Assembly: GCA_018266435.1 (NCBI GenBank)
Contig: JAFEAL010000010.1
Coordinates: 1-64,000, forward strand
Reading direction: 5' to 3'
Length of the DNA stretch: 64,000 nucleotides
From: Bacteroidota bacterium
Lineage (GTDB): Bacteria > Bacteroidota > Bacteroidia > Cytophagales > Cyclobacteriaceae
Under the pieces are notes generated by a model that saw nothing but the letters and a program-made list of their open reading frames with translations, did not search any database and was not told the DNA's origin. Below are positions 17,142 to 33,692 of the stretch, piece by piece (the first letter of the stretch is position 1; every line of letters begins with the position of its first letter). A program made the position numbers and the translations under genes.

Positions 17142-18866
17142 ATGCTCATCCTCGGTCTTAATGCGTATCATGCTGATTCTTCTGCAGCAATTTTTAAAGA
17201 CGGCATACTGATTGCCGCCACGGAAGAAGAACGTTTTCGTAGAATCAAACACTGGGCGGGCTTTCCCAGCGAAGCGATAAAATTCTGTTTGAAGGAAGCC
17301 AATATTTCTTTGCAACAGGTGGATTACATCACCATTGGCCGCGACCCAAAAGCAAAGTTTTGGAGTAAAGTAAAATTTGTGTTGGCCAATGTGCACAAAA
17401 AAAATACGCTGCTTTCCGATCGCATTAAAAACTCAAAGAAGATTGCCAGTATTGAAAGCGAGTTAGCCGCCATCAGCAACTTACCCGAGGCTGAAATAAA
17501 ACCCAAAATTATTAACGTAGAGCATCACCGAAGCCACCTGGCCTCGGCTTTTTTTGCCAGCCCGTTTGATGAGGCAGCTATTCTTTCGATCGATGGCTCG
17601 GGCGATTTCACTACGACAATGATTGCCACCGGCAAAGGCAACGAAATCACCGTTCTTGATTCTGTTGACTTCCCGGTTTCGGCCGGATTGTTTTATACTG
17701 CGTTTACCCAGTACCTCGGATTTCCTCATTACGGTGATGAATACAAAGTAATGGGGCTGGCGCCTTACGGTGAGCCGGTGTATGCCGATGCTATAAAAAA
17801 AATTATCCGGTTTAACGCAAACGGACTATTTAGCTGGGATGAAAGTTATTTTGCTAACCCCACTGAAATAAAACTGGATTACTCCACGCACGTTCCAGAT
17901 ATCTCTCAGCTCTTCGGAAATAAAATGGTTATAACATTTGGCCCGCCACGCGAAGCCAAAGAAGAATTAACACAAAAACATAAAGATATTGCCGCCAGTG
18001 TTCAGCGGGTTTGCGAAGAATTGATCCTACACATTTTAAGTAGTCTGCAACAGAGAACCGGTCTTAAAAATATTTGCATAGCCGGTGGCGTGGCGCAAAA
18101 CTCAGTAGCCAACGGTAAGATTATTGAAAGAACAAATTTTGAAAATCTATACATCCCTTCGGCCGGCCACGATGCGGGCATAAGCATGGGCAGTGCACAG
18201 TATGCGTACCATCATGTACTGAAAAACAAGAGATGCCCGCCCATTTACAGTGCTTATACCGGCAGTAAATTTTCTAATGATGAAATTGAAAAGCTGCTGC
18301 GTGAACGTAACATTTCATTTAAGAGATTAGAAGATGAAAAACTTTTTGATCGGGTAACCGATAAATTAATACAACCCGGTGTGGTAGGATGGTTCAGCGG
18401 GCGGGCTGAGTTTGGCCCGCGGGCACTGGGTGCCCGGTCTATTCTGGCCGATCCAAGAAACCCGAATGCCAAAGATTTATTAAACGCCAAAATAAAAAGA
18501 CGCGAAAGTTTTCGCCCGTTTGCTCCATCCATTTTAAAAGAATATACCGGTGAGTTTTTTGAAAAAACAGAAGACGTACCCTTCATGGAAAAAGTCTTCC
18601 CAATCAAAAAAGAGAAACGCGAATTAATCCCGGCTGTAACTCATGTGGATGGAACGGGCCGTTTACAAACGGTGATGCGCGAGGTATCACCCCGTTATTA
18701 CGAGTTGATTGATACCTTCCGAAAGAAGACCGGTATCCCCATTCTGCTCAATACATCCTTTAATGAAAATGAACCGATTGTGAATACACCGGCTGAAGCC
18801 CTTGACTGCTTCTTGCGCACCAACATGGATATGCTGGTGCTTGAAAACTGCGTAGTGGAACGATGA
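17142..18866 (+). CDS. Carbamoyltransferase (NodU/CmcH family)
   Basis: 574 residues, full length. The N-terminal ASKHA-type domain opens with N-A-Y-H-A-D-S-S-A-A and has A-T-E-E-E-R-F and H-H-R-S-H-L-A-S-A-F, where metal and carbamoyl-adenylate are bound; the C-terminal YrdC-like part has S-G-R-A-E-F-G-P-R-A-L-G-A-R-S-I-L and F-R-P-F-A-P-S. The family uses carbamoyl phosphate and ATP to carbamoylate a hydroxyl group, as in NodU and TobZ. In this cluster it likely carbamoylates a polysaccharide sugar. The following GT2 start overlaps its stop (ATGA). Confidence 0.92.
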   Translation: MLILGLNAYHADSSAAIFKDGILIAATEEERFRRIKHWAGFPSEAIKFCLKEANISLQQVDYITIGRDPKAKFWSKVKFVLANVHKKNTLLSDRIKNSKKIASIESELAAISNLPEAEIKPKIINVEHHRSHLASAFFASPFDEAAILSIDGSGDFTTTMIATGKGNEITVLDSVDFPVSAGLFYTAFTQYLGFPHYGDEYKVMGLAPYGEPVYADAIKKIIRFNANGLFSWDESYFANPTEIKLDYSTHVPDISQLFGNKMVITFGPPREAKEELTQKHKDIAASVQRVCEELILHILSSLQQRTGLKNICIAGGVAQNSVANGKIIERTNFENLYIPSAGHDAGISMGSAQYAYHHVLKNKRCPPIYSAYTGSKFSNDEIEKLLRERNISFKRLEDEKLFDRVTDKLIQPGVVGWFSGRAEFGPRALGARSILADPRNPNAKDLLNAKIKRRESFRPFAPSILKEYTGEFFEKTEDVPFMEKVFPIKKEKRELIPAVTHVDGTGRLQTVMREVSPRYYELIDTFRKKTGIPILLNTSFNENEPIVNTPAEALDCFLRTNMDMLVLENCVVER

Positions 18867-20526: not shown

Positions 20527-21490
20527 TAGCTGGCTGATATTTGTTGCCGGTGCAGTTTTTTTGCTGGCTATAGAGTTGATTTATTTTAAAATAGCTGCCC
20601 GTTATGATATCATTGATAAACCCAATGAGCGGAGCTCGCACTCCAGCCCAATCATTCGCGGAGGCGGTATCCTTTTTTTATTCAGTGTAATCGGCTGGTT
20701 TGTAACCGGCTCATTTTCTTTCCCCTGGTTTGTGACGGCTGTGCTCATTGCTTCGGTTGTAAGTTTTACTGACGATTTAGGTACAGTTAATTTTTTAATT
20801 CGCATGGCCGTTCAGTGTGCAAGCATTTTGCTTATTTTTTTTCAACTGGATATATATACTTACCCGGTATTTTTGGTCATTGCCGCACTGATTGTATCAG
20901 TAGGTACCCTTAATGCATTTAATTTTATGGATGGAATTAACGGAATCACAGGAATGTATTCGTTAGTCACTCTGGCTACACTTTATTTTGTTCAAACTCA
21001 GATTATTTCATTTACCCACACTGATCTGCTGATCTGGGTTTCACTGGCATTGATTATTTTTCTTGTTTTTAATTTCAGAAAAAATGCCCGTTGTTTTGCT
21101 GGCGATGTGGGTAGCATTAGCATTGCATTAGTCATTGTTTTTTTAATCGGTCAATTAATCATTAAAACCAACTGGCCCTATTGGATTTTTCTGTTATTGG
21201 TTTACGGTATGGACTCGGTAATCACAATTGTTTTCAGGTTGATTAGAAGAGAAAATATCTTTAAGCCACACCGCACACACCTGTACCAATACTACAGCAA
21301 TGAGTTGGGGTATGATCATCGTGCTATATCCGTAATGTACGGACTGGTTCAATTTTTTTTTAATGTTGTGTTAGCTTATGCTTTTATTCAAGGCAACGTG
21401 AGGTGGGTGGTTTGTACCGTTGTGGCATTTACCGGTTTGTATGTCATGGCACGCTTTTCAGTAATTAGAAAAGTAAAGGCCATCAAATGA
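20519..21490 (+). CDS. WecA/WbpL/MraY-type undecaprenyl-phosphate sugar-1-phosphate transferase
   Basis: 323 residues with about ten membrane helices. Family marks: D-K-P-N-E-R-S-S-H (polyprenyl-phosphate binding), S-F-T-D-D-L-G (the D-D Mg2+ motif), N-A-F-N-F-M-D-G-I-N-G-I, F-A-G-D-V-G-S and the cytosolic R-x-H-R-T-H-L-Y-Q basic loop. The enzyme starts glycan assembly by moving a HexNAc-1-phosphate to undecaprenyl phosphate. H-R-T-H-L-Y-Q-Y is more WbpL/WecA than MraY. It overlaps the epimerase gene by 8 bases and the PglC-like gene by 4, so two different initiating enzymes are made from one transcript. Confidence 0.9.
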   Translation: MYNSWLIFVAGAVFLLAIELIYFKIAARYDIIDKPNERSSHSSPIIRGGGILFLFSVIGWFVTGSFSFPWFVTAVLIASVVSFTDDLGTVNFLIRMAVQCASILLIFFQLDIYTYPVFLVIAALIVSVGTLNAFNFMDGINGITGMYSLVTLATLYFVQTQIISFTHTDLLIWVSLALIIFLVFNFRKNARCFAGDVGSISIALVIVFLIGQLIIKTNWPYWIFLLLVYGMDSVITIVFRLIRRENIFKPHRTHLYQYYSNELGYDHRAISVMYGLVQFFFNVVLAYAFIQGNVRWVVCTVVAFTGLYVMARFSVIRKVKAIK

Positions 21491-22077
21491 AATCTGCCTA
21501 TGTAAGCACGTTTAAAAGACCGCTGGATATATTGGTGTGTCTTGTTCTTTTTGTATTGACCTCCTGGTTGCTGATATTAATCTCGTTGGTATATCTTTTT
21601 ACTTTTCAGTTTCCTGTGTTATTTAAACAGGAGCGAATTGGGTTGAACAACCAGACCTTTGTAATGTATAAATTTCGTACACTGGCGAGTGATGGGGCAG
21701 CGAGTGTGCAGCAAAGACGATTTTGGCTTGGGGATTTCTTGCGTTTTTTTTCGTTGGATGAATTGCCGCAGCTCTGGAATGTTTGGGTAGGAGAGATGTC
21801 TCTCATCGGGCCCAGGCCATTACCCTTAGAGTATCTTTCAAAAATGAATGACGAGCAAAAGCAACGTCATTTACTCAGGCCGGGTATAACTGGATTAACA
21901 CAGGTGAGTGGTCGTCATGCTCTGGCCTGGGAAAAAAAATTTGACCTGGATCGGTACTATGTGCATCATGTTTCGTTGGTTATGGATTTAAAAATTTTGC
22001 TCAAAACAATTGTACTTCTGGTTTCCATGAAAAAAGATCAATCGCTCGAAGAGAAAAAATTCGAAGGCAATCCATAG
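21487..22077 (+). CDS. pglC: PglC-type initiating sugar-phosphate transferase
   Basis: 196 residues, the short monotopic form without the multi-helix N-terminal part of WcaJ/WbaP. One hydrophobic re-entrant helix at residues about 12-38, then F-K-Q-E-R-I-G, M-Y-K-F-R-T-L, D-E-L-P-Q-L-W-N-V, M-S-L-I-G-P-R-P and L-R-P-G-I-T-G-L-T-Q-V-S-G-R. The D-E pair is the catalytic dyad. Size and the presence of PglD-, PglE- and PglF-like genes close by suggest the donor is UDP-diacetylbacillosamine or a similar 4-amino sugar. Gene symbol by homology and context. Confidence 0.85.
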   Translation: MKSAYVSTFKRPLDILVCLVLFVLTSWLLILISLVYLFTFQFPVLFKQERIGLNNQTFVMYKFRTLASDGAASVQQRRFWLGDFLRFFSLDELPQLWNVWVGEMSLIGPRPLPLEYLSKMNDEQKQRHLLRPGITGLTQVSGRHALAWEKKFDLDRYYVHHVSLVMDLKILLKTIVLLVSMKKDQSLEEKKFEGNP

Positions 22078-22113: not shown

Positions 22114-22743
22114 ATGAAGAATATTCTTATTTGCGGAGCAGGAGGTTTCGGAAAAGAAACAGCTCAACTGATCAGACAGATTAATTCAGTTTCATCCCGG
22201 TGGAATATTATCGGGTTTGCTGACGATAACAAGTCGGTGGGCGAGATGGTTGCCGGGCTTCCTGTGCTGGGTGGGGTTTCGTATGCACTTCATCATAAAG
22301 GAGAGTTAGATGTGGCCATCGCTATTGCCGACCCACACATACGCAAATCCATTTACGAACAACTCTGTCACACCAAATTGATGTTTCCATCGCTCATTCA
22401 TCCCGGAGTATCGATTGATTTCAATGCCGAAATAGGGGCAGGCTCGATTGTGTGTGCAGGCGTGCTGATAACTACTGAAGTGAAACTTGGTAATTTTTCT
22501 TTGATTAACCTGGGGTGCACGCTGGGGCATGATAGTGTGATAGGCGATTTTACTTCGTTGATGCCTTCGGTAAACGTATCAGGCACGGTGAAAATCGGTG
22601 CACAGTGCTACGTGGGAGTAGGTGCAATCATTTTACAAGGATTAACCATTGGCGATAGTTGTCAGGTAGGTGCCGGTGCTGTAGTAACAAAATCTTTTGA
22701 AGCCGGAAAAAAAATATTGGGCGTACCCGCTCGCTCCATTTGA
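22114..22743 (+). CDS. pglD: PglD/NeuD-type sugar O/N-acetyltransferase
   Basis: 209 residues. An N-terminal Rossmann-like half (I-L-I-C-G-A-G-G-F-G-K-E, then F-A-D-D-N-K) is followed by left-handed beta-helix repeats from about residue 97 to the end, closing with G-V-P-A. The catalytic-type His139 is in N-L-G-C-T-L-G-H-D. This two-part build is specific to the PglD/NeuD/VioB family; PglD acetylates the 4-amino group of UDP-4-amino-6-deoxy-GlcNAc with acetyl-CoA. It lies directly downstream of the PglC-like gene, with PglE- and PglF-like genes following. Confidence 0.88.
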   Translation: MKNILICGAGGFGKETAQLIRQINSVSSRWNIIGFADDNKSVGEMVAGLPVLGGVSYALHHKGELDVAIAIADPHIRKSIYEQLCHTKLMFPSLIHPGVSIDFNAEIGAGSIVCAGVLITTEVKLGNFSLINLGCTLGHDSVIGDFTSLMPSVNVSGTVKIGAQCYVGVGAIILQGLTIGDSCQVGAGAVVTKSFEAGKKILGVPARSI

Positions 22744-22746
22744 GTC

Positions 22747-23280
22747 ATGAAATTTTTTTTGGAAAATAAGAAAGCACTGATCTTTTTACTCACCTTCGTT
22801 GGGGTTTATTTGGTGCTCAATACCATTTATGCCCTTTACATCGGGCATTATTACCCTGCCTCTGATCCGATCACACAATGGGTTTCTGATATTGTAGTTG
22901 GATTTCTTTCTCTCTTTGATGCCAGTATAAATTCGTTTCCGTCTTCGTTCAGCGAATACATTCCGATTGCCAATGATCGCGAGAACATGATATACGTTTT
23001 TGAAGGATGCAATGGCCTGAATGTAATGATTGTTTACTTCAGTTTTCTGGTTGCTTTTCGTGGGCCGGTCAGGCTCTTTGTAGGGTATGCGATTTCAGGA
23101 ATAATTTTAGTGTTTATCCTGAATATTGCTCGGATTGCATTGCTATATGGAGTGGCATTTTATTTTCCTGAACAGTTGTATTTTTTTCACAAGTACTTTT
23201 TTACGGCTACCATTTATGCCGTTGTTTTTCTGCTTTGGTATTTTTGGGTGAAACAAGTTAGAAAGTTACAGGGTGAGTAA
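22747..23280 (+). CDS. xrtF: Exosortase family protein XrtF
   Basis: 177 residues with about five hydrophobic segments. The exosortase triad is in place: Cys88 in F-E-G-C-N-G-L, Arg129 in L-N-I-A-R-I-A, and His148 in F-F-H-K-Y-F-F. Short length and the paired downstream membrane protein fit the Bacteroidota XrtF type. Exosortases are inner-membrane transpeptidase-like enzymes that recognise a C-terminal motif plus hydrophobic helix plus basic tail, and are generally found with exopolysaccharide genes. A candidate substrate is encoded at 30657. It is inserted between pglD (3-base gap) and pglE. Confidence 0.88.
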   Translation: MKFFLENKKALIFLLTFVGVYLVLNTIYALYIGHYYPASDPITQWVSDIVVGFLSLFDASINSFPSSFSEYIPIANDRENMIYVFEGCNGLNVMIVYFSFLVAFRGPVRLFVGYAISGIILVFILNIARIALLYGVAFYFPEQLYFFHKYFFTATIYAVVFLLWYFWVKQVRKLQGE

Positions 23281-23683
23281 TAAAAAACCTATCGATTGGA
23301 TTTTAGCCACATTTTCTATTGTAGGGATTGTATTCGTTTACCTGTTTCAGGACTTTCCTTTTCTTGCTACCCTGATCGTTTCAGAACAAGGACTATTTGT
23401 TGGGCGCAAACTCTTGCGGGTAATTCTGAATGACTTGTTTATGTTGTTGTTTATTGCCGTCTGGTTTAAGGATAAGCAAGTTACCCGATTGGCCCTACTG
23501 ATCCAGCTCATTGATAGTTTCGTGCTTCTTCCAATCTACCTGTACTACAAACTCAGCACCGAAGGTGTGTCAGAAATTTCTGATCCGTTTCTTTCACAGT
23601 TTCACCGGCTGATCATCAACCCGACCTTGATGATTTTATTAATCCCGGCAGTATATTTTCAAAAAATTTCTTCAAAGAAATGA
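23273..23683 (+). CDS. XrtF-associated membrane protein, GTG start
   Basis: 136 residues starting at GTG 23273, overlapping xrtF by 8 bases. Four predicted membrane segments (about residues 10-26, 49-65, 73-92 and 113-129). It matches the layout of the small exosortase-F-associated proteins found next to xrtF in Bacteroidota: a charged V-G-R-K-L-L-R-V-I-L-N-D-L-F stretch, and H-R-L-I-I-N-P-T-L-M before the last helix. Its function is not established; a role assisting XrtF is inferred from constant linkage. Its stop is overlapped by the next aminotransferase start. Confidence 0.82.
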   Translation: MSNKKPIDWILATFSIVGIVFVYLFQDFPFLATLIVSEQGLFVGRKLLRVILNDLFMLLFIAVWFKDKQVTRLALLIQLIDSFVLLPIYLYYKLSTEGVSEISDPFLSQFHRLIINPTLMILLIPAVYFQKISSKK

Positions 23684-24798
23684 GAGAACGAATTTTTCTT
23701 TCGCCACCTCACCTGTGTGGAGAGGAAATTAGGGAAGTGGAACGTGCGGTTCAATCAAATTGGATTGCACCGGCCGGGCCGGCTACCAGACAATTTGAGA
23801 AGTTGATTTCTCAATATAACAAAATTGACCATTGTGTAGCGGTAAGTTCGGGCACAGCAGCCATTCATCTTGCGCTAATTGTTTTGGGTGTAGGGCGAGA
23901 GGACGAAGTGGTGTGCCCCACTTTCACCTTCGCGGGGTCGTGCTACCCGGTTCTGTATCAATCGGCCATACCTGTATTGGTAGATTCGGAAAAAGAAGGG
24001 TGGGGAATTGATCCAAAACTTTTAGATGAAGTCATTGCCGATCGAATCAGGCTGGGAAAAAAGCCGAAGGCCATCATTGTAGTTCACCTGTTTGGTATGC
24101 CCGCCCGGATGAATGAGATTTTGACGGTATCAAAAAAGTATTCAATCCCTGTCATTGAAGATGCTGCGGAAGCCTTAGGCTCAACCTATCTTGACAAGCC
24201 TGCAGGAACAATGGGCGACTTAGGTATTTATTCATTCAATGGAAATAAAATTATTACCACTTCCGGAGGTGGTGCATTGGTATCATCCAACCAGGAATGG
24301 ATTAATTATGCCCGCTATTTATCCGGTCAGGCCAAAAGCCAGGCCCCGTACTACCATCACGAAGCAATGGGCTATAACTACCAGTTGAGCAACATCAGTG
24401 CCAGCCTAGGTGTGGGGCAGTTTTCCGCACTCCTTACCCGTATTGAGCAAAAGAGAAGGCTATTTCAATACTATGAATCGCAGATATCTAAATACGGTTT
24501 TGAGTTTCAACAAGAACAAGACGGAGTATTCTCTAACCGCTGGCTGACTACAGTACTAATGAAACCAGGAGCTGCTAAAAACAGCAACGAAGTTATTCGC
24601 CTTGAATTGGAAAACGAAAACATAGAAGCTCGGCTTTTGTGGAAACCCATGCATTTGCAGCCAATTTTTGAAAAATATCCATTTTATGGTTCTGGAGTGT
24701 CTGAAAATCTTTTTTCAAGAGGATTATGTCTGCCCAGTGGCTCAAATCTGAGCCAAGAAGATCAGAAACTGATCATCCAGAAATTGATAAAAAAGTAA
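23680..24798 (+). CDS. pglE: PglE-type sugar aminotransferase (DegT/DnrJ/EryC1/StrS)
   Basis: 372 residues. Starts R-I-F-L-S-P-P-H-L-C-G-E-E, then W-I-A-P-A-G-P, V-S-S-G-T-A-A-I-H-L-A-L (phosphate binding), I-E-D-A-A-E-A-L-G (ring contact) and Lys190 in S-F-N-G-N-K-I-I-T-T-S-G-G-G as the PLP lysine. The F-N-G-N-K-I-I-T-T-S-G-G-G form is typical of C4-aminotransferases such as PglE, LegC and PseC. It should convert UDP-4-keto-6-deoxy-GlcNAc to the 4-amino sugar acetylated by PglD. ATG 23680 overlaps the preceding stop. Confidence 0.88.
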   Translation: MRERIFLSPPHLCGEEIREVERAVQSNWIAPAGPATRQFEKLISQYNKIDHCVAVSSGTAAIHLALIVLGVGREDEVVCPTFTFAGSCYPVLYQSAIPVLVDSEKEGWGIDPKLLDEVIADRIRLGKKPKAIIVVHLFGMPARMNEILTVSKKYSIPVIEDAAEALGSTYLDKPAGTMGDLGIYSFNGNKIITTSGGGALVSSNQEWINYARYLSGQAKSQAPYYHHEAMGYNYQLSNISASLGVGQFSALLTRIEQKRRLFQYYESQISKYGFEFQQEQDGVFSNRWLTTVLMKPGAAKNSNEVIRLELENENIEARLLWKPMHLQPIFEKYPFYGSGVSENLFSRGLCLPSGSNLSQEDQKLIIQKLIKK

Positions 24799-24856
24799 GG
24801 TTACTCATTCTGAAATATTGGAATTTACCAATTAAAAATACTTCGTTTTTTTAAAT

Positions 24857-24864
24857 TATATTTG
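24857..24864 (+). promoter_or_regulatory. Candidate -7 promoter box for the giant surface protein
   Basis: TATATTTG is a perfect TAnnTTTG box 12 bases before ATG 24877, in the 78-base gap after pglE. A TTG at the right -33 distance is not evident; the nearest lies at 24818, too far away. The same octamer occurs in the much better HU promoter at 45378. Confidence 0.38.
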
Positions 24865-24876
24865 CCACTTACCCGT

Positions 24877-27800
24877 ATGCCGATGAAATGGAAATTTACT
24901 TGGTCACTACTGTGTGCATTTGCTGTTGCGTTAGGAGGTTCATTCGCCCAAAATGTAGGCGATTATCAAACGGCCCAGAGTGGTCCTTGGAACCAGACCT
25001 CAACCTGGCAAATATGGAACGGCTCAGCTTGGGTTACACCTGCTTCCGTCCCTTCAGGTTCTTCATCGGCAGTCGTTACCATATTAGCTACTCCTGCGGT
25101 TCATACCGTTACAGTTTCATCGGGAACAGTCAACATTGATAACTTAACTGTAAACGGAATTCTTACGGTAAATTCAGGCACCACACTTAACCTGAACCTG
25201 ACTAATCCAACGGTTATTAATGGTGTATTGAATAATAGCGGCACAATTACCGGGCAAACTAGCCTGGTTACAATTAATGGCTCGTATAATCATACCCGCA
25301 ATGGAGGTAGTATCCCCTCGGCCACCTGGGTGGCAGGATCTTTTTGTAATGTTACCGGAGTTACTAATACTGTTCCCGGTGGGTTGGGCCAGAGTTTTGA
25401 TAGCTTTATTTGGAATTGTACCCAGACTGGTACAATCAATTTTGCGGGCAACCTAACATCGGTTGGTGCTAACTTGACAATTAGTTCAACCAATGGTCAA
25501 CAACTTCAACTGGCCACTTCGCAAGCTCCGGTAATCAATATTGGAGGCAACTTAACTGTAAGTGGAAATTCCAGACTGTCATTTATAACGACAGGTTCAG
25601 GTGCCACCATTAATGTAGGGGGCAATTTCTATTACCAGTCTACCAACACTACCGGATCAACTCTTAAATCTTCTGGAACATACACCTTGAACCTCACGGG
25701 GGATTTTAACATGAATGCGGGTACCTCTTCAGCGCAAGGAAGGCTTTTGTTTTCAAGTGGAGCCGGAAATGCAACGTGGAACCTGAATCAGGGAAATTTT
25801 TTATTAAAATGCGGAACGTTGACCCGAAGCGGTGGTGCTGGTGTGGTCAATTTTAATTTTGCAGGATTACAGACATTTTCAAATGATTCAATTGGAACAA
25901 TTTCATCCGTTGTTAATTTCTTAGTCAGTTCAGGTACAACGCTGGATATGCCTGTAAACGTCTGGGATAATACAACCGACTCACGCATTCAGGGAACAGG
26001 TACATTTACCCTTAACGGCACGCTGCGGGTTGGGTCAGTTAACTCAACGGGAGCTATTGTAACAGGTAATACGTTAGGGAACATTAGAAATTCTGGCGTC
26101 CGCACGTACAACTCAGGAGCAAGAATAGTTTATGCTGGGCTCAATGCTCAGTTTATTGGCAACGGCCACCCCACTACGGCAGGTGTTGATACCGAGATTG
26201 ATAATGTTTCGGATGTAACCTTTAATACCACCACTTCGGGCAATTCAGGTAGTGCAGTATTGACCATACCCAATAATCTCATTTTAACTAATGGAAATTT
26301 TAACTTGGTTAGCACTGGAACAGCCCGTACGTTGACTTTAGACGGAAACGTAACGGCTAACTCAAATAACATTACTGTAGCTGGTGCAAACTCCAGTTTG
26401 GTTATCAATGGCACAGGCTCTTTTGGTACATTTCCATTTCCAACCGGAAGCCAGACGCTCAGAAATTTTACGTTGAACAGAACAAGTTCGGGGTCTGTAT
26501 CTTTTAGCAACAGTACACTTACAATTTCTGGTACCACAACACTTACCAACGGTACAGTAACGTTTGGGGGTACAACTGTTTTAACGGGAAATATTTCTCT
26601 GGCTACCGGCACAGTGCTGGCGTTTGATAATCAATCACTCACCACCGGAGCTGACATTACTTACGCAGGCACAGGTGCACTTTCAGCCAGCGGTACATCC
26701 ACTTTAACCATGAACAGTGGAGCTGCTATAACGTCAGACCTTGTTTTTTTAGGAACGAATAATACATTACAGTCTCTGACAATTAGCTACACAAATAGCT
26801 CGGGCACTGTTTCAATCGGTTCTTCAGGAGTTAACGTAACTAATTCATTAACATTAACAGATGGAATTTTGAATATTCCTACTGCAGGACTTCTTACTAT
26901 GGGTAATAACTCCCTGGTAACCAGAAATGTAACAGGTGCCAGTCCTAGTTCTATTACAGGTAACAGTCCTTCGGGTGGACCATGGACACTGAAGTACAGC
27001 GGCACAGCCAGTGTTACAACCGGTTTAGAGATACCCTCTGCAGGTTCTCCGCAGATTGCCGGGTTATTGATTACAACAACGGCCGGAACCGTTACCCTCG
27101 GACAGGCTTTGACAATCGGATCGGGCGGAATCACTCAAAGTGGATCTAGTGGAATTTTCACTTGCGGAGCTAACGCGGTCTCCACCTCATCTTTTAATCA
27201 AACAGCCGGAACTTTTACAGCACCCAGTTCAACCCTAACACTAACAGGAAACTTAACTACATCCGGCTCAGCCTTTAATAACAACTCGGGTACAATAATC
27301 TTCAATGGAACTTCAATCGTATCGGGTACATTGAACCCTAATTATTATGCAGTAACCATTAATGGTGGGGCCTCAGTTACCGCACCTGCTACCTGGAATA
27401 TTCAAAGTAATTTCTCTAACAGTGGTACATTCAATGGGGGAACCGGAACGGTTAATTTCAGTGGGGCAAACGTGCAAACCATATCAGGCTCATCCAACAC
27501 TACATTTTACAATTTGACCGTAAACAAGTCAGGCGGCAGCCTGACCGTAAGTTCTGCTGAAACAGTCTCAAACAATTTTACACTCACAGCAGGTACGTGC
27601 AATATTTCATCACCCGTTTCAATGACCAATACCACAGGCCTGCTTACGCTAACGGCAGGAACCATGGCCATCACGTCCAATAATTTAAGTTTGGCAAATG
27701 GAGCAACAATTTCACGAGCAGCGGGTTCAATCACTACTTCATCGCCTGGAGGAGGCCCATGGAACCTTGTTTATACAGGAGGTTCAAAAACAACCGGCCT

Positions 27801-30651
27801 TGAAATACCTTCTTCGGGAAGCGTACTCACAGTAACCTTGAACACAAATAATGCAAGTACCGTTATTCTTCAGGCAGGGCAGGCATTGAGTGTAACGAAT
27901 GCCTTTACAATCAGTAATTCAGGACGAACATTTAACTCCGGTGCCAACAATGTAACAGTAGGTTCGTTGTCAAACAACGGAACGTTTACGGCACCTTCCG
28001 CAACCGCTACAACCGGCTTGACTCTTAACGGTGATTTCACCAACAGTGGCACTTATAATGCAAATGGAGGCACCGTGCACATTGGTGCTGCTGTGACAGT
28101 TTCTGGTACTGCGCCCACGTTCAATAATTTTGTGGTTGATGCAGCCGGAAGTTTTACAGCTCCTTCTTCGTTTCCGTTGACGGGTAGCCTGACCAATAAC
28201 GGTTCTTTTACTACCAGTGGCACAGTCTCTTTCTCTGGAAACACAGCCAAACAAATACTGGGAACCAATAAAATCACTTTCAATAACCTGACTCTGACTG
28301 GTGGCACTAATGTCAATGATTTAACATTAGCTACTACGGCCGGGGCAGATGTAACCGGCATAGTCACATTATTGGCTCCTGCTAATGCGGCTGTGTTAAC
28401 GATTAATGCAAGTTGCCCTTTTACTTTGCTGTCAACCGCAGACCGTCCAACTGTTGATGCGAGTGTTGCGGCAATACCGACCGGAAGTTCAATAAGTGGC
28501 AACGTAACAGTGCAGCGCTACATGAGCAAGATTGGCGTGGCGGCCTACAATTACCAGGTGTACCATGATATTTCTTCACCGGTAAATACAAACGTGGCTG
28601 ACCTTCAGAATTCACTACCAATCACTGGAAATTTTACCGGTGCCAGCATCGTTTCCGGAGTTACTAATTCCAATCCTGGTTCTGCGGCTATGGCTTGGTA
28701 TGATGAAACTCAAACTGGCGGCATAAATACCGGGTGGACTGATTTTCCTGCTGATGGAACCGATAACACCGCTTCATTCGTAAAGGGCAGGGGATATTCT
28801 CTTTTTGTTTTTGGAAGCGATCCTCCGGTTACAACCAATGGTATGGCCAAATGGTCATTAACCGGCCCAATTTGGAGCGGAACTTTTAATTTACCTGTAA
28901 CCTACACCAATACCGGGAGTCCCTCTGATGATGGTTGGAATTTGGTAGGCAATCCATATCCTTCAGCCATTGATTGGAAGGCAGCAAGCGGGTGGACTAA
29001 AACTAATGTAGATGATGCTATTTATGTGGATGATTACAATACGGCTAATCCGGTATTCGCTTCGTATGTCAATGGTGTCGGTACCAATGGAGGAACTCAA
29101 TACATAGCGACTGGCCAGGGTTTTTGGGTTCATGCCAATGCCGCAGCACCCGTAGTTGGTGTTTCTGAAAGCATAAAAGTACCTGGTCAATCTACTACTT
29201 TCTTCAGGCAAGCAGAACCACCCAACTTGATCCGCATAGCACTGATAGATGCAAACTCTCTACGCGATGAATCAGTAATCTACTTTTCTGATTCAGCCAC
29301 AGTAGGCTTTGATAAGAGATACGATGCCAGAAAATTGAACAACCAATACGGGTACTTAAACCTTTCTTCATTGTCGCCTGTTAATGAGCCATTTGCTATT
29401 CATGCTCTACCGTTTGATAATACGGCATGTGCCACCACTGTGCCATTAAAAGTTACTAATGTGGCAACAGGAAACTACAGCCTATCCTTCAGTGAGTTTC
29501 AATCCATGCCCTCTTCATTATCCATAAAATTGAAGGATAAATATTTGGGCAGTAATACAGATGTTCGGCAAAATCCTATTTATGTATTTTCCGTTGATAA
29601 AAATGTAGCAGGCTCAATTGATTCTACCCGTTTCAGTATGATATTTACTTACTCCGCTGTTCCGGCTTCGATTATGGCCAGTGGGGTAAGTGTTTGTGAT
29701 ACCACCATGGCTAAGGTAACGATCAACAACACTTCTCCAGAGTTTGTCTATACGCTTAGCACCTCTCAGGGATCAGTTGTAATACCAGCTATACAAGGAA
29801 GCGGATCTAATCTTATTCTTCCGGTATCAGCAAAAAATTTAGCCATAGGTAAAAATACATTTACAATTAAGGCAGCCAATAGTTTTTGCCAGACATTGTC
29901 TTTATCTGATACAGTTTCAATCAGGTTGGTTGCTCCTCCGTCTGCCCCAACGGCAATTTCCTCCTCGTCATGCGGAAGTGGGTTGATTACGCTAACGGCT
30001 TCGGGTGCAACCGGAACTGGTTATTATAACTGGTATGATTCGCTTAATGCATCGTATCCTTATCCGGTGCAAACAGCTGCATTTGTAACAGACAGCTTAT
30101 CGAAACCCAAAACATTTTATGTGTCAATCACCAGTAGTTTGGGATGCGAAGGAGCAAAAGCAGCTGTAACAGCTAATGTTGTTAACTTAAATCCGGCCAC
30201 GATTACAGTTACGGGGCTTACTACCTTGCAGTCCAACTACTCCTCTGGCAATCAATGGTATTTAAACGGATCGGCAATCAGCGGAGCAACCGGCCAGACA
30301 TTGACTGTTAACCAATCGGGAACGTATGGATTGACCGTTAATTCGCAGGGTTGTTCAGTATCCTCTCCAACTAAGGACATGGTGGTTACTTCCGTAGAAG
30401 AGGTTTCTAATAGTATTAAAGCATATCCAATTCCCGTAAAGGGAACATTGTATATGGAGGTGCCTGATCAGGGACCGACATCCGGAGAGTTGTATAATGC
30501 CATGGGTATGAAAATAACTTCATTAGGATTCACAGGAGATGGTCTGAAGCAAATTTCTAGTTATAATTTTGCACGGGAGAGCGCTGGGGTTTATTTTGTA
30601 AGAATTAGTCAAGGAAATGCAATAACTGTAGTCCGCATCATTAAAGATTAA
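24877..30651 (+). CDS. Giant repeat-rich secreted protein with T9SS type A sorting domain
   Basis: 1,924 residues from ATG 24877 (ATG 24883 equally possible; the longer TTG reading from 24862 is unlikely). A signal peptide ends around S-F-A-Q. From about 24950 to 28430 the protein is a low-complexity series of Ser/Thr/Asn/Gly-rich beta-strand repeats, probably a beta-helix stalk. About 28500-29200 is a globular region with the Bacteroidota-typical G-W-N-L-V-G-N-P-Y-P-S-A-I-D-W and Q-G-F-W-V. Ig-like modules follow (about 29930-30390), then an 80-residue C-terminal T9SS domain (A-Y-P-I-P-V, and G-V-Y-F-V-R-I near the end). It should cross the outer membrane by T9SS and stay on the surface. Several D-S/T-hydrophobic sites could be O-glycosylated. 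Ligand unknown. Confidence 0.9.
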   Translation: MPMKWKFTWSLLCAFAVALGGSFAQNVGDYQTAQSGPWNQTSTWQIWNGSAWVTPASVPSGSSSAVVTILATPAVHTVTVSSGTVNIDNLTVNGILTVNSGTTLNLNLTNPTVINGVLNNSGTITGQTSLVTINGSYNHTRNGGSIPSATWVAGSFCNVTGVTNTVPGGLGQSFDSFIWNCTQTGTINFAGNLTSVGANLTISSTNGQQLQLATSQAPVINIGGNLTVSGNSRLSFITTGSGATINVGGNFYYQSTNTTGSTLKSSGTYTLNLTGDFNMNAGTSSAQGRLLFSSGAGNATWNLNQGNFLLKCGTLTRSGGAGVVNFNFAGLQTFSNDSIGTISSVVNFLVSSGTTLDMPVNVWDNTTDSRIQGTGTFTLNGTLRVGSVNSTGAIVTGNTLGNIRNSGVRTYNSGARIVYAGLNAQFIGNGHPTTAGVDTEIDNVSDVTFNTTTSGNSGSAVLTIPNNLILTNGNFNLVSTGTARTLTLDGNVTANSNNITVAGANSSLVINGTGSFGTFPFPTGSQTLRNFTLNRTSSGSVSFSNSTLTISGTTTLTNGTVTFGGTTVLTGNISLATGTVLAFDNQSLTTGADITYAGTGALSASGTSTLTMNSGAAITSDLVFLGTNNTLQSLTISYTNSSGTVSIGSSGVNVTNSLTLTDGILNIPTAGLLTMGNNSLVTRNVTGASPSSITGNSPSGGPWTLKYSGTASVTTGLEIPSAGSPQIAGLLITTTAGTVTLGQALTIGSGGITQSGSSGIFTCGANAVSTSSFNQTAGTFTAPSSTLTLTGNLTTSGSAFNNNSGTIIFNGTSIVSGTLNPNYYAVTINGGASVTAPATWNIQSNFSNSGTFNGGTGTVNFSGANVQTISGSSNTTFYNLTVNKSGGSLTVSSAETVSNNFTLTAGTCNISSPVSMTNTTGLLTLTAGTMAITSNNLSLANGATISRAAGSITTSSPGGGPWNLVYTGGSKTTGLEIPSSGSVLTVTLNTNNASTVILQAGQALSVTNAFTISNSGRTFNSGANNVTVGSLSNNGTFTAPSATATTGLTLNGDFTNSGTYNANGGTVHIGAAVTVSGTAPTFNNFVVDAAGSFTAPSSFPLTGSLTNNGSFTTSGTVSFSGNTAKQILGTNKITFNNLTLTGGTNVNDLTLATTAGADVTGIVTLLAPANAAVLTINASCPFTLLSTADRPTVDASVAAIPTGSSISGNVTVQRYMSKIGVAAYNYQVYHDISSPVNTNVADLQNSLPITGNFTGASIVSGVTNSNPGSAAMAWYDETQTGGINTGWTDFPADGTDNTASFVKGRGYSLFVFGSDPPVTTNGMAKWSLTGPIWSGTFNLPVTYTNTGSPSDDGWNLVGNPYPSAIDWKAASGWTKTNVDDAIYVDDYNTANPVFASYVNGVGTNGGTQYIATGQGFWVHANAAAPVVGVSESIKVPGQSTTFFRQAEPPNLIRIALIDANSLRDESVIYFSDSATVGFDKRYDARKLNNQYGYLNLSSLSPVNEPFAIHALPFDNTACATTVPLKVTNVATGNYSLSFSEFQSMPSSLSIKLKDKYLGSNTDVRQNPIYVFSVDKNVAGSIDSTRFSMIFTYSAVPASIMASGVSVCDTTMAKVTINNTSPEFVYTLSTSQGSVVIPAIQGSGSNLILPVSAKNLAIGKNTFTIKAANSFCQTLSLSDTVSIRLVAPPSAPTAISSSSCGSGLITLTASGATGTGYYNWYDSLNASYPYPVQTAAFVTDSLSKPKTFYVSITSSLGCEGAKAAVTANVVNLNPATITVTGLTTLQSNYSSGNQWYLNGSAISGATGQTLTVNQSGTYGLTVNSQGCSVSSPTKDMVVTSVEEVSNSIKAYPIPVKGTLYMEVPDQGPTSGELYNAMGMKITSLGFTGDGLKQISSYNFARESAGVYFVRISQGNAITVVRIIKD

Positions 30652-30656
30652 CCGAA

Positions 30657-30869
30657 ATGCAACGTTTTTCCATGAGGCTTTTATTTTTTATGTTCCTTTT
30701 CTTTGCGGTTGGTGGCTTATTTGCTCAGCCCGGAGGTGGAAGGCCGTGTCCTAAGCCTCCATGTCCTCCGCCCGTTCCGATTACCGGAATTGAGTACTTA
30801 ATCGGGTTAGGCGGGTTGTATGGAATCAGGAAGTTAATCAAGTCTCAAAAACAAAACCCCCATCGGTGA
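30657..30869 (+). CDS. Short secreted protein with PITG C-terminal sorting-like signal
   Basis: 70 residues. Signal peptide at 1-24 (hydrophobic core, cut probably after F-A-Q), a short Gly/Pro/Cys-rich middle (25-40), then P-I-T-G at 41-44, a hydrophobic glycine-rich stretch (about 45-57) and a basic tail with five Lys/Arg. This tripartite end resembles exosortase/sortase substrates and the small Bacteroidota proteins annotated from memory as PID-CTERM, with T in place of D. It lies 5 bases after the giant protein gene and its stop overlaps the pglF GTG, so it is a real, translationally coupled gene. An XrtF substrate role is inference. Confidence 0.72.
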   Translation: MQRFSMRLLFFMFLFFAVGGLFAQPGGGRPCPKPPCPPPVPITGIEYLIGLGGLYGIRKLIKSQKQNPHR

Positions 30870-32773
30870 TTCGGTTATTCATCCGTTTTATCCGTAACCT
30901 GCGGATACTTCCGCGGTGGGTCATTATTTTTATTGATGTTGCCTTAATTGCTTTCTCTGTTTTACTGGGTTACTTATTACGATTCAATTTTTCAGTTGAG
31001 GAATTGGAGCGGAATCAATTCGAATCAGGTATAGCCATTTATTCTTTTTGTGGGCTTATTTCGATATTACTGACTAATAGCCACCGGGGCATTATCCGGT
31101 ACACCGGCACACAAGATGGTGTTCGTATTTTTTACATGAATACGGTGAACCTGGGTTTAGTTTATGCTACTAATTTTATTTTCAGTTTGGGGCATAGACC
31201 CAACCTCATTCCTTACTCGGTTATTCTGATCAGTTGGCTGTCCTCATTTCTTCTTTTGTTTTATTACCGACTTTTAGTTAAACAGGTTTTTTCTTACTAC
31301 CGCAACTCCATGGTTAATCAGGCCCGCATCATGATTTTTGGTGCCGGGCAAACGGGCATTATTACGCGCCATGTGTTGGAGTCAACCCCCCGGATGAAGG
31401 TGGTTGGTTTTTTAGAGGATGCTCCCGATAAAATCGGAAAGGTTATAGACGGTATTACCATTTTTGACAGCAAAACTTCAGAACTCGGCCGCTTGCTTAG
31501 CGATAACACCGTTAACGAGGTAATTTTTACTGCTTCCAATATTTCGTTAGATAGAAAAAATGAAATTGTAGATGTTTGTGTACGTAAGCAAATAAAAGTA
31601 AGAACTGTTCCGCCTGTGGAAAAATGGGTAAGGGGCGAGCTTAGCCTTAACCAGATTAAAGAATTAAATATTGAAGAGCTACTGGGGCGCGAATCTATCA
31701 AAATTAAAAACGGTAATATTGAATCAGATCTCCGGGGCAAAAGAATCATAATTACAGGAGCAGCTGGTTCTATAGGTTCTGAAATTTTCAGGCAGATCCT
31801 TTTAGCCAACCCGAGTTCTGTTATTTTGATAGACCAGGCTGAATCTGCTTTATATGAGTTGGAATGTGAATCCAAGTCAATGAATATCAGTGCGCGCCTC
31901 TACTGGTATCTCGCTGATATTAATGAGAAAGACCGGATACGGTTGATATTTGAAGAGCATCGACCCAATATCGTGTACCACGCGGCAGCCTATAAGCATG
32001 TTCCCATGATGGAGAATAACCCATCAGAAGCTATCAAATGCAATATTTTAGGTACCAAAAACATGGCTGATTTAGCCGTTGAATTTGGGGTAAGTAAGTT
32101 TGTGATGATCTCTACGGATAAGGCCGTAAACCCAACCAATGTGATGGGTTGCTCTAAGCGCATAGCTGAAATATATGTGCAGTCGTACAATGATTACCTG
32201 GAAACTCAAGGGAAACAACGCACGGCTTTTGTTACGACACGATTTGGTAATGTGTTGGGCTCAAACGGATCAGTTATTCCGCTTTTTAAAAAACAAATTC
32301 AAGAAGGTGGACCGGTAACAGTTACCCATCCGGAGATTACCCGCTATTTTATGACCATCCCTGAGGCGTGCCAGTTGGTGTTGGAAGCAGGGACCATGGG
32401 CAGGGGAGGTGAAATATTTATTTTTGATATGGGCAAGTCTGTTAAGATATTGGATTTGGCTGAAAAAATGATTTGGCTATCGGGCCTTGAACCCAGAAAA
32501 GATATAGACATTGTATTTACCGGATTACGAGAAGGTGAAAAGCTGTACGAAGAACTGCTGAACAATCATGAAAATACCATTGCTACGCATCATGAAATGA
32601 TCATGATTGCAAAGGTTAAAAAATATCCATACGAAGAGATTAATCGCTATGTAGATCTGTTCAATGATTTACTGTACGACAAAAATGAATTAAAAAGCGT
32701 GGCGCTGATGAAAGAATTAGTGCCAGAATATAAAAGTAATTATTCGCGCTACGAGGTGTTAGACAAGAATTGA
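30866..32773 (+). CDS. pglF: PglF/WbpM/CapD-type UDP-GlcNAc 4,6-dehydratase
   Basis: 635 residues, the long membrane-bound form. GTG 30866 overlaps the previous stop (GTGA). Four N-terminal membrane helices (about residues 16-145), a CoA-binding-like domain with I-F-G-A-G-Q-T-G, and a C-terminal SDR domain with I-I-T-G-A-A-G-S-I-G-S-E, H-A-A-A-Y-K-H-V-P-M and M-I-S-T-D-K-A-V-N-P-T-N-V-M-G. In this family the usual catalytic Tyr is replaced by Met in M-G-x-x-K, as here. It dehydrates UDP-GlcNAc to the 4-keto-6-deoxy sugar that PglE/PglD, and perhaps the SDR at 19606, use. Confidence 0.92.
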   Translation: MIRLFIRFIRNLRILPRWVIIFIDVALIAFSVLLGYLLRFNFSVEELERNQFESGIAIYSFCGLISILLTNSHRGIIRYTGTQDGVRIFYMNTVNLGLVYATNFIFSLGHRPNLIPYSVILISWLSSFLLLFYYRLLVKQVFSYYRNSMVNQARIMIFGAGQTGIITRHVLESTPRMKVVGFLEDAPDKIGKVIDGITIFDSKTSELGRLLSDNTVNEVIFTASNISLDRKNEIVDVCVRKQIKVRTVPPVEKWVRGELSLNQIKELNIEELLGRESIKIKNGNIESDLRGKRIIITGAAGSIGSEIFRQILLANPSSVILIDQAESALYELECESKSMNISARLYWYLADINEKDRIRLIFEEHRPNIVYHAAAYKHVPMMENNPSEAIKCNILGTKNMADLAVEFGVSKFVMISTDKAVNPTNVMGCSKRIAEIYVQSYNDYLETQGKQRTAFVTTRFGNVLGSNGSVIPLFKKQIQEGGPVTVTHPEITRYFMTIPEACQLVLEAGTMGRGGEIFIFDMGKSVKILDLAEKMIWLSGLEPRKDIDIVFTGLREGEKLYEELLNNHENTIATHHEMIMIAKVKKYPYEEINRYVDLFNDLLYDKNELKSVALMKELVPEYKSNYSRYEVLDKN

Positions 32774-32774
32774 A

Positions 32775-33692
32775 TTATCTCCGCCTGATGCTACCTTTCT
32801 TATTATAGCGATACATAGAGGAGCGTTTCTTTCCTCCAAAAAGTAAGCCATTGCCCCTGCTGCCGCCTTCGCGCATAGGCAGATAATATTCTACTTTTAC
32901 ATTTAATAAAAAATAACTGTCAGTACTGGAGGGGTTGCCGCGCTTCGATCCGGCATTATAGTTATTTTGCTCTCCTGAAGGAATAGTGGTCAGTGTATTG
33001 TATGCCGGATTATTTGGGTTAATGAAATAATTTCGAATCGGGTCTGAGGTGGGGGCAATGTATTTTGAACTGACGTCATCCAAATAATTGGTAAAAGTTT
33101 TTCGGTAACCACCTTCTAAAACAAGGTTAGTATTGGGGCCCATTTTTAATCGTACACCTAACCCAAAAGGAATAACCGGTACTACACGACTATAACTTAC
33201 CCCTTCGGTATGCAGGGGTTCGAGGTCATAGGTTTTTCCGTTTAATTGTGCTTGTGGATTGAAATACAGTAACCCAATTCCAGTAAATCCATAAATATTG
33301 ACTTGTTGCCTACGGTAGTAACGGTTTCCATTGGCAAAAAGATTGAAAGCGGCAATAGTGCTGAGTTCAAAGCAGTTGCTTTGAAATGAAAGTCCTCTTG
33401 CTTTTCTGGCTGCGCTGTTGGCTTGAGCATCTGACCCTTCCAGTTTAAACCAATTTAACTCTGCCCGTAAGTCAATGCTTGGGGTAACATAAGCCTGAAG
33501 GCCCACATTCAAATTAGGTTGTAGTTTGAAGATGGCTCCTGGATTGGCCAGAGTGCCATAATATGTAGATGAACCCGTACCTGCCGTTAGTATTAAAGAC
33601 CTTTCTCTTCTGACTGCATAGAAACTTTGAGCAGCAGAAAACTCTGTTAGCATTACAAAAACAAAAAACAGGACGATCTTGGGGTTGTTCAT
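32775..33692 (-). CDS. Outer-membrane beta-barrel protein (DUF6089-like)
   Basis: 305 residues with an N-terminal signal peptide ending in S-A-A-Q. Mature sequence alternates hydrophobic and polar residues with many aromatic and glycine residues (L-T-A-G-T-G-S-S-T-Y-Y-G, V-N-I-Y-G-F-T-G-I-G-L-L-Y-F, L-V-L-E-G-G-Y-R-K-T-F), as in small Bacteroidota porin-like barrels of the DUF6089 group. The C-terminal 25 residues are strongly basic, unusual for a barrel end. It converges on pglF with one base between the stops. Function unknown beyond outer-membrane location. Confidence 0.75.
   Translation of the reverse strand: MNNPKIVLFFVFVMLTEFSAAQSFYAVRRERSLILTAGTGSSTYYGTLANPGAIFKLQPNLNVGLQAYVTPSIDLRAELNWFKLEGSDAQANSAARKARGLSFQSNCFELSTIAAFNLFANGNRYYRRQQVNIYGFTGIGLLYFNPQAQLNGKTYDLEPLHTEGVSYSRVVPVIPFGLGVRLKMGPNTNLVLEGGYRKTFTNYLDDVSSKYIAPTSDPIRNYFINPNNPAYNTLTTIPSGEQNNYNAGSKRGNPSSTDSYFLLNVKVEYYLPMREGGSRGNGLLFGGKKRSSMYRYNKKGSIRRR

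Follow-up and report, generated by a model that had tools for sequence, protein, structure and literature searches.

A short PITG-tailed protein as the probable dedicated substrate of exosortase F in Bacteroidota

Which protein does exosortase F (XrtF) act on? In Flavobacterium johnsoniae, XrtF and its partner protein are required for biofilm formation, and the available text of a 2025 paper describes the targets of XrtF as not yet known (PMC12188702); the corresponding part of a 2024 mutant study leaves XrtF substrates to future work (PMC10936215). The literature that we found mentioning XrtF names no target in its accessible text, in agreement with a first-pass annotation, made from sequence, that had called XrtF substrates not established. 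The question is raised anew by a 64,000-nucleotide stretch (hereafter the window) of contig JAFEAL010000010.1 from a Cyclobacteriaceae member of the Bacteroidota (assembly GCA_018266435.1), where xrtF shares an operon with a gene for a 70-amino-acid (aa) protein, here termed the stub. We consider it very probable that the stub is the dedicated substrate of XrtF, and this pairing is well supported because co-inheritance, a shared operon, a conserved anatomy and the catalytic residues were all observed.

The stub gene occupies positions 30657–30869 of the window (forward strand). The layout described by the first-pass annotation is present in its sequence: a signal peptide (recognized by eye), a 17-residue Gly/Pro/Cys segment, the motif PITG, a hydrophobic stretch and a basic tail, reading MQRFSMRLLFFMFLFFAVGGLFAQ / PGGGRPCPKPPCPPPV / PITG / IEYLIGLGGLYGI / RKLIKSQKQNPHR. 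This open reading frame (ORF) is not a chance one, because its sequence and position are kept in relatives whose XrtF is merely 34–69% identical. In an alignment of stubs from the window's relatives (A1, 19 rows), the motif was PITG in 12 rows and PISG in seven, and the part running from the inferred signal-peptide cleavage point to the end of PI[TS] measured 14–22 residues, e.g., QPGDPSGDPDVPIT. The cysteines to which the annotation had drawn attention do occur in the window stub but in just 8 of the 19 rows, which rules out Cys-pair chemistry as a general feature. Passenger segments are mostly Pro-rich both in the window's relatives and in Flavobacterium, and their sequence varies freely among species; Flavobacterium stubs can exceed those of the window lineage in length and carry the motifs PIDx or PINx. 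The two types (A1 and A3, the latter profile described below) aligned over their full length with an hhalign probability of 98.3, and a profile of Flavobacteriaceae PID-type stubs trained without the window stub (A2) matched the window stub with an E value of 2.1e-7.

A tail-only profile (A4) was run on 58 genomes, comprising the window's own and its relatives (36 from the window genus and 22 from the rest of the order). The tail was found at E ≤ 1e-7 in 28 of them, once each and always in a frame of at most 80 aa, and no longer protein bearing it was found in the 58 genomes at E ≤ 1e-3. Because the tail is single per genome and confined to small frames, XrtF in the window group appears, judging from sequence, to act on a single substrate, with none that carries a long passenger.

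The xrtF gene (22747–23280, forward strand) encodes 177 aa scoring 120.6 bits against TIGR04128 (cut-off 90). Cys88, Arg129 and His148, reported in the first-pass annotation, are indeed there and were identical in all 94 aligned rows (95 enzymes sought, L059 left out for want of a match); a protease or transpeptidase activity is predicted from this Cys/Arg/His site. In a tree of the 82 distinct sequences among these rows, the window enzyme grouped with Flavobacteriaceae XrtF in a clade of 71 rows (support 100/99). A separate clade (100/99) held enzymes, including those of genomes rich in PIDGG proteins, that we call XrtX-like, a label of our own given from the tree to proteins unscored against the XrtX model. 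For the window enzyme the XrtX model NF046081 ranked second (101.6 bits against a cut-off of 170), and XrtX was ruled out both by this score and by the tree. The exosortase model PF09721 had no match in the window genome, and therefore the XrtF model was needed. A fold comparison of the predicted XrtF structure (predicted local distance difference test score 89.6) with the PDB gave no match at E ≤ 0.001. The partner, an exosortase F system-associated membrane protein (23273–23683, forward strand), matched TIGR04127 over residues 38–132 with 33.5 bits (cut-off 35), and the TIGR04127 partner adjoins xrtF in 22 of the 22 named loci (see below) that contain xrtF.

Co-inheritance was examined in 150 genomes of a Flavobacterium-like genus (g31) with a 19-row stub profile (A3). 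At E ≤ 1e-3 the stub was found in 133 of 134 XrtF-positive genomes and in 1 of 16 XrtF-negative genomes, and exclusion of the six training genomes left 127 of 128 and 1 of 16, respectively. The XrtF and stub profiles were concordant in 148 of the 150 genomes (Fisher's test, p = 1.6e-18, uncorrected for kinship), so the co-occurrence of such tails with XrtF that the first-pass annotation had proposed to look for was found. There were mostly one to three A3 matches per genome and six at most. In G393, the one XrtF-negative genome where a stub was found, the partner gene is cut off by the start of a contig (base 1), and its xrtF thus probably lies in an assembly gap; the XrtF-positive genome without an A3 match (G471) has a divergent stub-like ORF. 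One of the 134, G414, has an enzyme below the cut-off (62 bits) and lacks the partner, so that its enzyme may not be XrtF proper; the stub score of G365 is weak (6.2e-4). None of the other 15 XrtF-negative genomes matched the partner model, and eight of nine XrtF-positive ones tested did. When all candidates were rescored with A2 in four of the 16 negative genomes (and in G393), no convincing stub appeared in those four; the best candidate (G390, E = 0.0026) does not read as a stub.

At the level of the phylum, the XrtF profile at E ≤ 1e-3, which catches XrtX-like enzymes too, was positive in 92 of 296 sampled genomes, with 35 above the cut-off. The PID-CTERM model (E ≤ 0.01) matched in 58 of the 296 genomes, 56 of which were also XrtF-profile-positive. 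The A2 profile was trained on weak PID-CTERM matches in strong-XrtF genomes, all short and mostly proline-rich stubs; ten were fetched and nine used. The omitted genome (G173) has a second, weaker exosortase, to which its stub may belong because that enzyme is only 4 kb away. At E ≤ 1e-4, A2 found a stub in 74 of the 92 XrtF-profile-positive genomes and in 1 of the 204 negative ones (G160, E = 8.8e-5). Together with the single case among the 16 negative genomes of g31, this runs counter to the idea, which the first-pass annotation had raised against itself, that such tails might be common in genomes without an exosortase. Among the 30 genomes with the strongest XrtF, A2 matched at the same threshold in 27 (nine training genomes and 18 of 21 others), and the stubs of the missed three (G069, G150, and G330) are divergent by eye.

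XrtF was also sought in the 58 genomes of the window's own order. Among the 21 window-genus genomes at least 95% complete, 17 had both genes, none had XrtF alone, one had the stub alone and three had neither (Fisher's test, p = 0.003, likewise uncorrected for kinship). When fragmentary metagenome-assembled genomes (MAGs) were included, the 36 genomes divided into 24 with both, four with XrtF alone, four with the stub alone and four with neither. In one stub-alone genome (G034) the stub is 3.5 kb from the contig start and the partner was not found either; xrtF may be on another contig. In the 22 genomes from the rest of the order, A1 matched at E < 2e-4 in seven of eight XrtF-profile-positive genomes and in none of 14 negative ones.

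The operon reads PglC-PglD-xrtF-partner-PglE-giant type IX secretion system (T9SS) protein-PITG stub-PglF, with all genes on the forward strand. A PglC-type initiating sugar-phosphate transferase (21487–22077; PF02397, 179.5 bits) and a PglD/NeuD-type acetyltransferase (22114–22743; TIGR03570, 198.5 bits, cut-off 160.8) precede xrtF. The stub starts 7.4 kb past xrtF, and between them lie a PglE/LegC-type DegT aminotransferase (23680–24798; PF01041, 299.7 bits; LegC model TIGR04181, 361.8 bits, below its cut-off of 420) and a secreted, repetitive T9SS type A protein of 1929 aa (24862–30651; TIGR04183, 26.6 bits, cut-off 23). The stub begins 5 nt downstream of the T9SS gene and overlaps by 4 nt a PglF/WbpM-type UDP-HexNAc 4,6-dehydratase gene (30866–32773; PF02719, 404 bits).

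This gene order from PglC to PglF recurs as far as contigs reach in 24 window-genus stretches of at most 20 kb; in some of them PglE precedes xrtF. Of the 24 stretches, 18 contain a PI[TS]G stub, and the contigs of the other six end 1.1–6.8 kb past xrtF. An A1 scan of a named genome collection gave 36 stub loci from Cyclobacteriaceae, Flammeovirgaceae, Cytophagales, unplaced Bacteroidetes MAGs, Chryseosolibacter indicus, Shiella aurantiaca, Marivirga and a Chitinophaga MAG. Some of these loci appear to lie on contigs that also supplied window-genus stretches. PglF adjoined the stub in 33 of the 36 loci. Of the 25 loci whose sequence extends 8 kb or more ahead of the stub, 22 have xrtF there, the exceptions being two Marivirga loci and L280. 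In 35 of the 36 loci (the remaining one is cut by a contig end), the end of a long ORF lies −11 to +105 nt from where the stub is inferred to start, and 17 of these 35 ORFs overlap the stub by 4 nt; all ten of the 35 that were scored had T9SS type A tails above the TIGR04183 cut-off.

A genetic handle may exist in F. johnsoniae. Genome G447, which we take to be strain UW101, is one contig of 6,096,872 bases, in which xrtF lies at 1.661 Mb. A3 matches it once, at 710.5 kb, in a stub of 80–88 aa ending ...GLPINQDLPYLIAAGLLLGTAVIYRNKIKKASI. A simple ORF count places this stub 57 ORFs before porZ (NF052228, 908 bits), that is, at Fjoh_0650, and a recount by coding score, which was off by one in both calibration intervals, places it at 0653–0654; the two counts together put the stub 54–57 ORFs before porZ. 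In the simple count the spacing of OmpA, PorZ and a TonB-dependent receptor is exactly as expected, provided that the ORFs recognized by eye as OmpA-like and SusC-like are the first and last of these genes. Their locus numbers in the available text of the sources are Fjoh_0697 for OmpA and Fjoh_0736 for the receptor (PMC9870892, PMC12611786, PMC8986121) and Fjoh_0707 for PorZ, and Fjoh_0651 appears there as a hypothetical protein with no COG (PMC10936215). The neighbouring genes are those for riboflavin synthase, PdxA, YceD and FabH to one side of the stub, and for a C5 methylase, an NgoFVII-like nuclease and Vsr to its other side. Since these neighbours have known families and Fjoh_0651 is hypothetical without a COG, it is the stub that best fits Fjoh_0651, an assignment that we think probable. 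In the accessible part of the mutant study, FJ0651, FJ1448 (ΔxrtF), FJ1449, FJ0334 (DegT aminotransferase) and the PorU and PorZ mutants share an identical phenotype row, with reduced sand colonization, much reduced biofilm, zorbs abolished and a wild-type B. cereus expansion effect (PMC10936215). A deletion of the stub, with the phenotype row of xrtF and its partner, may therefore already exist as FJ0651.

Several observations weigh against pairing the stub with XrtF. The stub was not adjacent to xrtF in the g31 genomes examined, so that the nearness to xrtF anticipated by the first-pass annotation holds as a conserved operon in the window's relatives and fails in g31. Two Marivirga loci (L278 and L279) have a stub and a T9SS protein with no xrtF or PglF within the available stretch. 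Agreement in the window genus was weak when fragmentary genomes were counted (36 genomes, Fisher's test, p = 0.054), and one XrtF-negative, 95% complete genome of that genus (G016) has a 72-aa stub-like ORF with PVDD (L305, C3:180434-180565), which may be a remnant, the substrate of another enzyme or a counterexample. Of the eight order-level enzymes, one (G050) gave no match for the tree, one (G041) fell in the XrtF clade and six grouped with XrtX-like enzymes; because of these six, the counts from the rest of the order support a wider exosortase-PID link more than one with XrtF itself. The stub negatives are not exhaustive, because just the best 20 (A2, phylum) or best 40 (A3, g31) first-look candidates per genome were scored. 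Composition by itself can give a score to profiles made of a signal peptide, a Pro-rich segment and a hydrophobic stretch; that it explains all the matches was rejected, as 15 of the 16 XrtF-negative g31 genomes had none among the best 40 candidates scored. The assignment of the stub to Fjoh_0651 rests on gene counting.

The distance of 7.4 kb with genes between, the separation in g31 and the exceptions in G016 and Marivirga would all suit a PITG protein that is unrelated to XrtF and merely sits in the same polysaccharide cluster. We regard this as very improbable, given that the two profiles agree across g31 even though the genes are not neighbours there. The same co-inheritance and operon would also be expected of an uncut stub, a small single-pass membrane subunit that cooperates either with the XrtF/partner pair or with the polysaccharide machinery, and the very short passenger suits this role. 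Such a subunit seems unlikely to us, as the P-I-[DTSN] boundary before a hydrophobic stretch and a basic end is the layout of exosortase substrates, and genomes with XrtX-like enzymes hold up to 9–11 PID tails attached to a variety of passengers, most of them short, a pattern closer to that of a sorting signal than of a subunit.

If the stub is instead a substrate of XrtF, the signal peptide would export it, and the hydrophobic stretch and basic tail would hold its C-terminal end in the inner membrane. XrtF and the partner would then cut it on the periplasmic side next to P-I-T-G, using the Cys/Arg/His site, and would leave a Gly/Pro-rich peptide of 14–22 residues, in the window about QPGGGRPCPKPPCPPPVPIT. 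Archaeosortases and sortases transfer the new C-terminus of the cut substrate to an acceptor, and by analogy the stub peptide may be passed on in the same way. In Campylobacter, the PglF, PglE, PglD and PglC enzymes produce an N-acetylated diamino-sugar and attach it to a lipid carrier; the PglF/E/D/C-type set of the window would, by the same comparison, yield such a carrier-loaded sugar, and the operon suggests that a lipid-linked aminosugar glycan made by these enzymes could be the acceptor. The product might help to present or retain the T9SS protein of the operon or a surface polysaccharide. The first-pass annotation had suggested that so short a substrate may be a carrier for an attached glycan or lipid, and the gene context, with its PglC/D/E/F-type genes and T9SS protein, would be in line with this. 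The cleavage, its site, the acceptor and the role of the product are all inferred here.

Cleavage could also end with a free short peptide, serving as a signal, an adhesin or a matrix part, with no conjugation. The predicted product is short enough for this and mostly Pro-rich in both lineages. Its sequence, however, varies freely between species, unlike that of a pheromone, and the constant glycan genes and nearby T9SS protein suggest a surface role, so that a free peptide seems to us rather unlikely. By analogy we favour a glycolipid acceptor. The full scheme, in which XrtF serves one substrate and joins the peptide C-terminus to a lipid-linked diamino-sugar glycan that anchors a T9SS adhesin or biofilm polysaccharide, is possible and is offered tentatively; if true, the stub protein would serve merely as a tag on a glycan.

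Among known systems, PID-CTERM proteins (NF046080) share with the stub a short passenger, P-I-D-G-G, a hydrophobic Gly-rich stretch, a basic tail and occurrence with exosortases. The window stub differs in having PITG (PISG in relatives) and scores about 13.2–14.4 bits against a cut-off of 26. The resemblance noted in the first-pass annotation thus stands for the layout and for co-occurrence with exosortases (with the exceptions in the window genus) and falls short of the NF046080 cut-off (13.2 against 26). The best reading of the sequence is a divergent PID-CTERM-like signal. Flavobacterium stubs differ from PID-CTERM by PIDx or PINx, many are below the cut-off, and they reach six matches per genome compared with nine alongside XrtX-like enzymes. 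As a search model NF046080 was too strict for these stubs, and profiles built from neighbours were used instead. Four genomes (G340, G167, G163, and G182) contain six to eleven short PIDGG proteins each and an XrtX-like exosortase, which we read as a one-to-many version of the stub design. The family is not made up of stubs alone, as one PID-CTERM match above the cut-off (G221:C1:2167132-2167203) lies in a 995-aa frame, a rare long passenger.

PEP-CTERM systems with EpsH (XrtA) likewise use a tripartite C-terminal signal and have many substrates with long passengers. The window stub has PITG and no PEP motif, and the window genome lacks the PF09721 match already mentioned. In PEP-CTERM/EpsH-type systems exosortase genes lie beside polysaccharide genes, according to the available text (PMC10936215). 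The T9SS protein and sugar genes of the operon also invite comparison with PorU and anionic lipopolysaccharide (A-LPS). This is an analogy only, with an enzyme and signal different from those of XrtF. PorU is the T9SS sortase that links cargo to A-LPS. In the accessible part of one report, T9SS cargo at the cell surface is attached through its C-terminus to an unusual sugar from the Wbp/Vim pathway (PMC7468200).

XrtF and PID-CTERM are each already named in NCBIfam. What is new is their pairing, with PITG/PISG and PIDx/PINx stubs as targets, which was not found in the accessible text of the literature searched; searches for PID-CTERM by name and for exosortase with bacillosamine found nothing. 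The pairing provides a concrete XrtF substrate candidate in nearly every strong-XrtF genome examined and makes the question of the XrtF target testable in Flavobacterium. Signature searches miss the stub, which is often below the PID-CTERM cut-off, 70–90 aa long and not beside xrtF in Flavobacterium. The operon further brings an exosortase together with aminosugar genes and a T9SS surface protein, giving a first idea of the acceptor.

Positions 1–33000 of the window are mostly polysaccharide-biosynthesis-like, with glycosyltransferases, epimerases, and WecA-like and PglC-like transferases (largely identified by eye). This polysaccharide-type cluster includes a carbamoyltransferase-like ORF at 17142–18866. 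Beyond PglF, a DUF6089 protein is encoded on the opposite strand (32775–33692). In Marivirga sericea (L279, near 9983), a PITG stub follows a T9SS protein with no xrtF or PglF within 10 kb.

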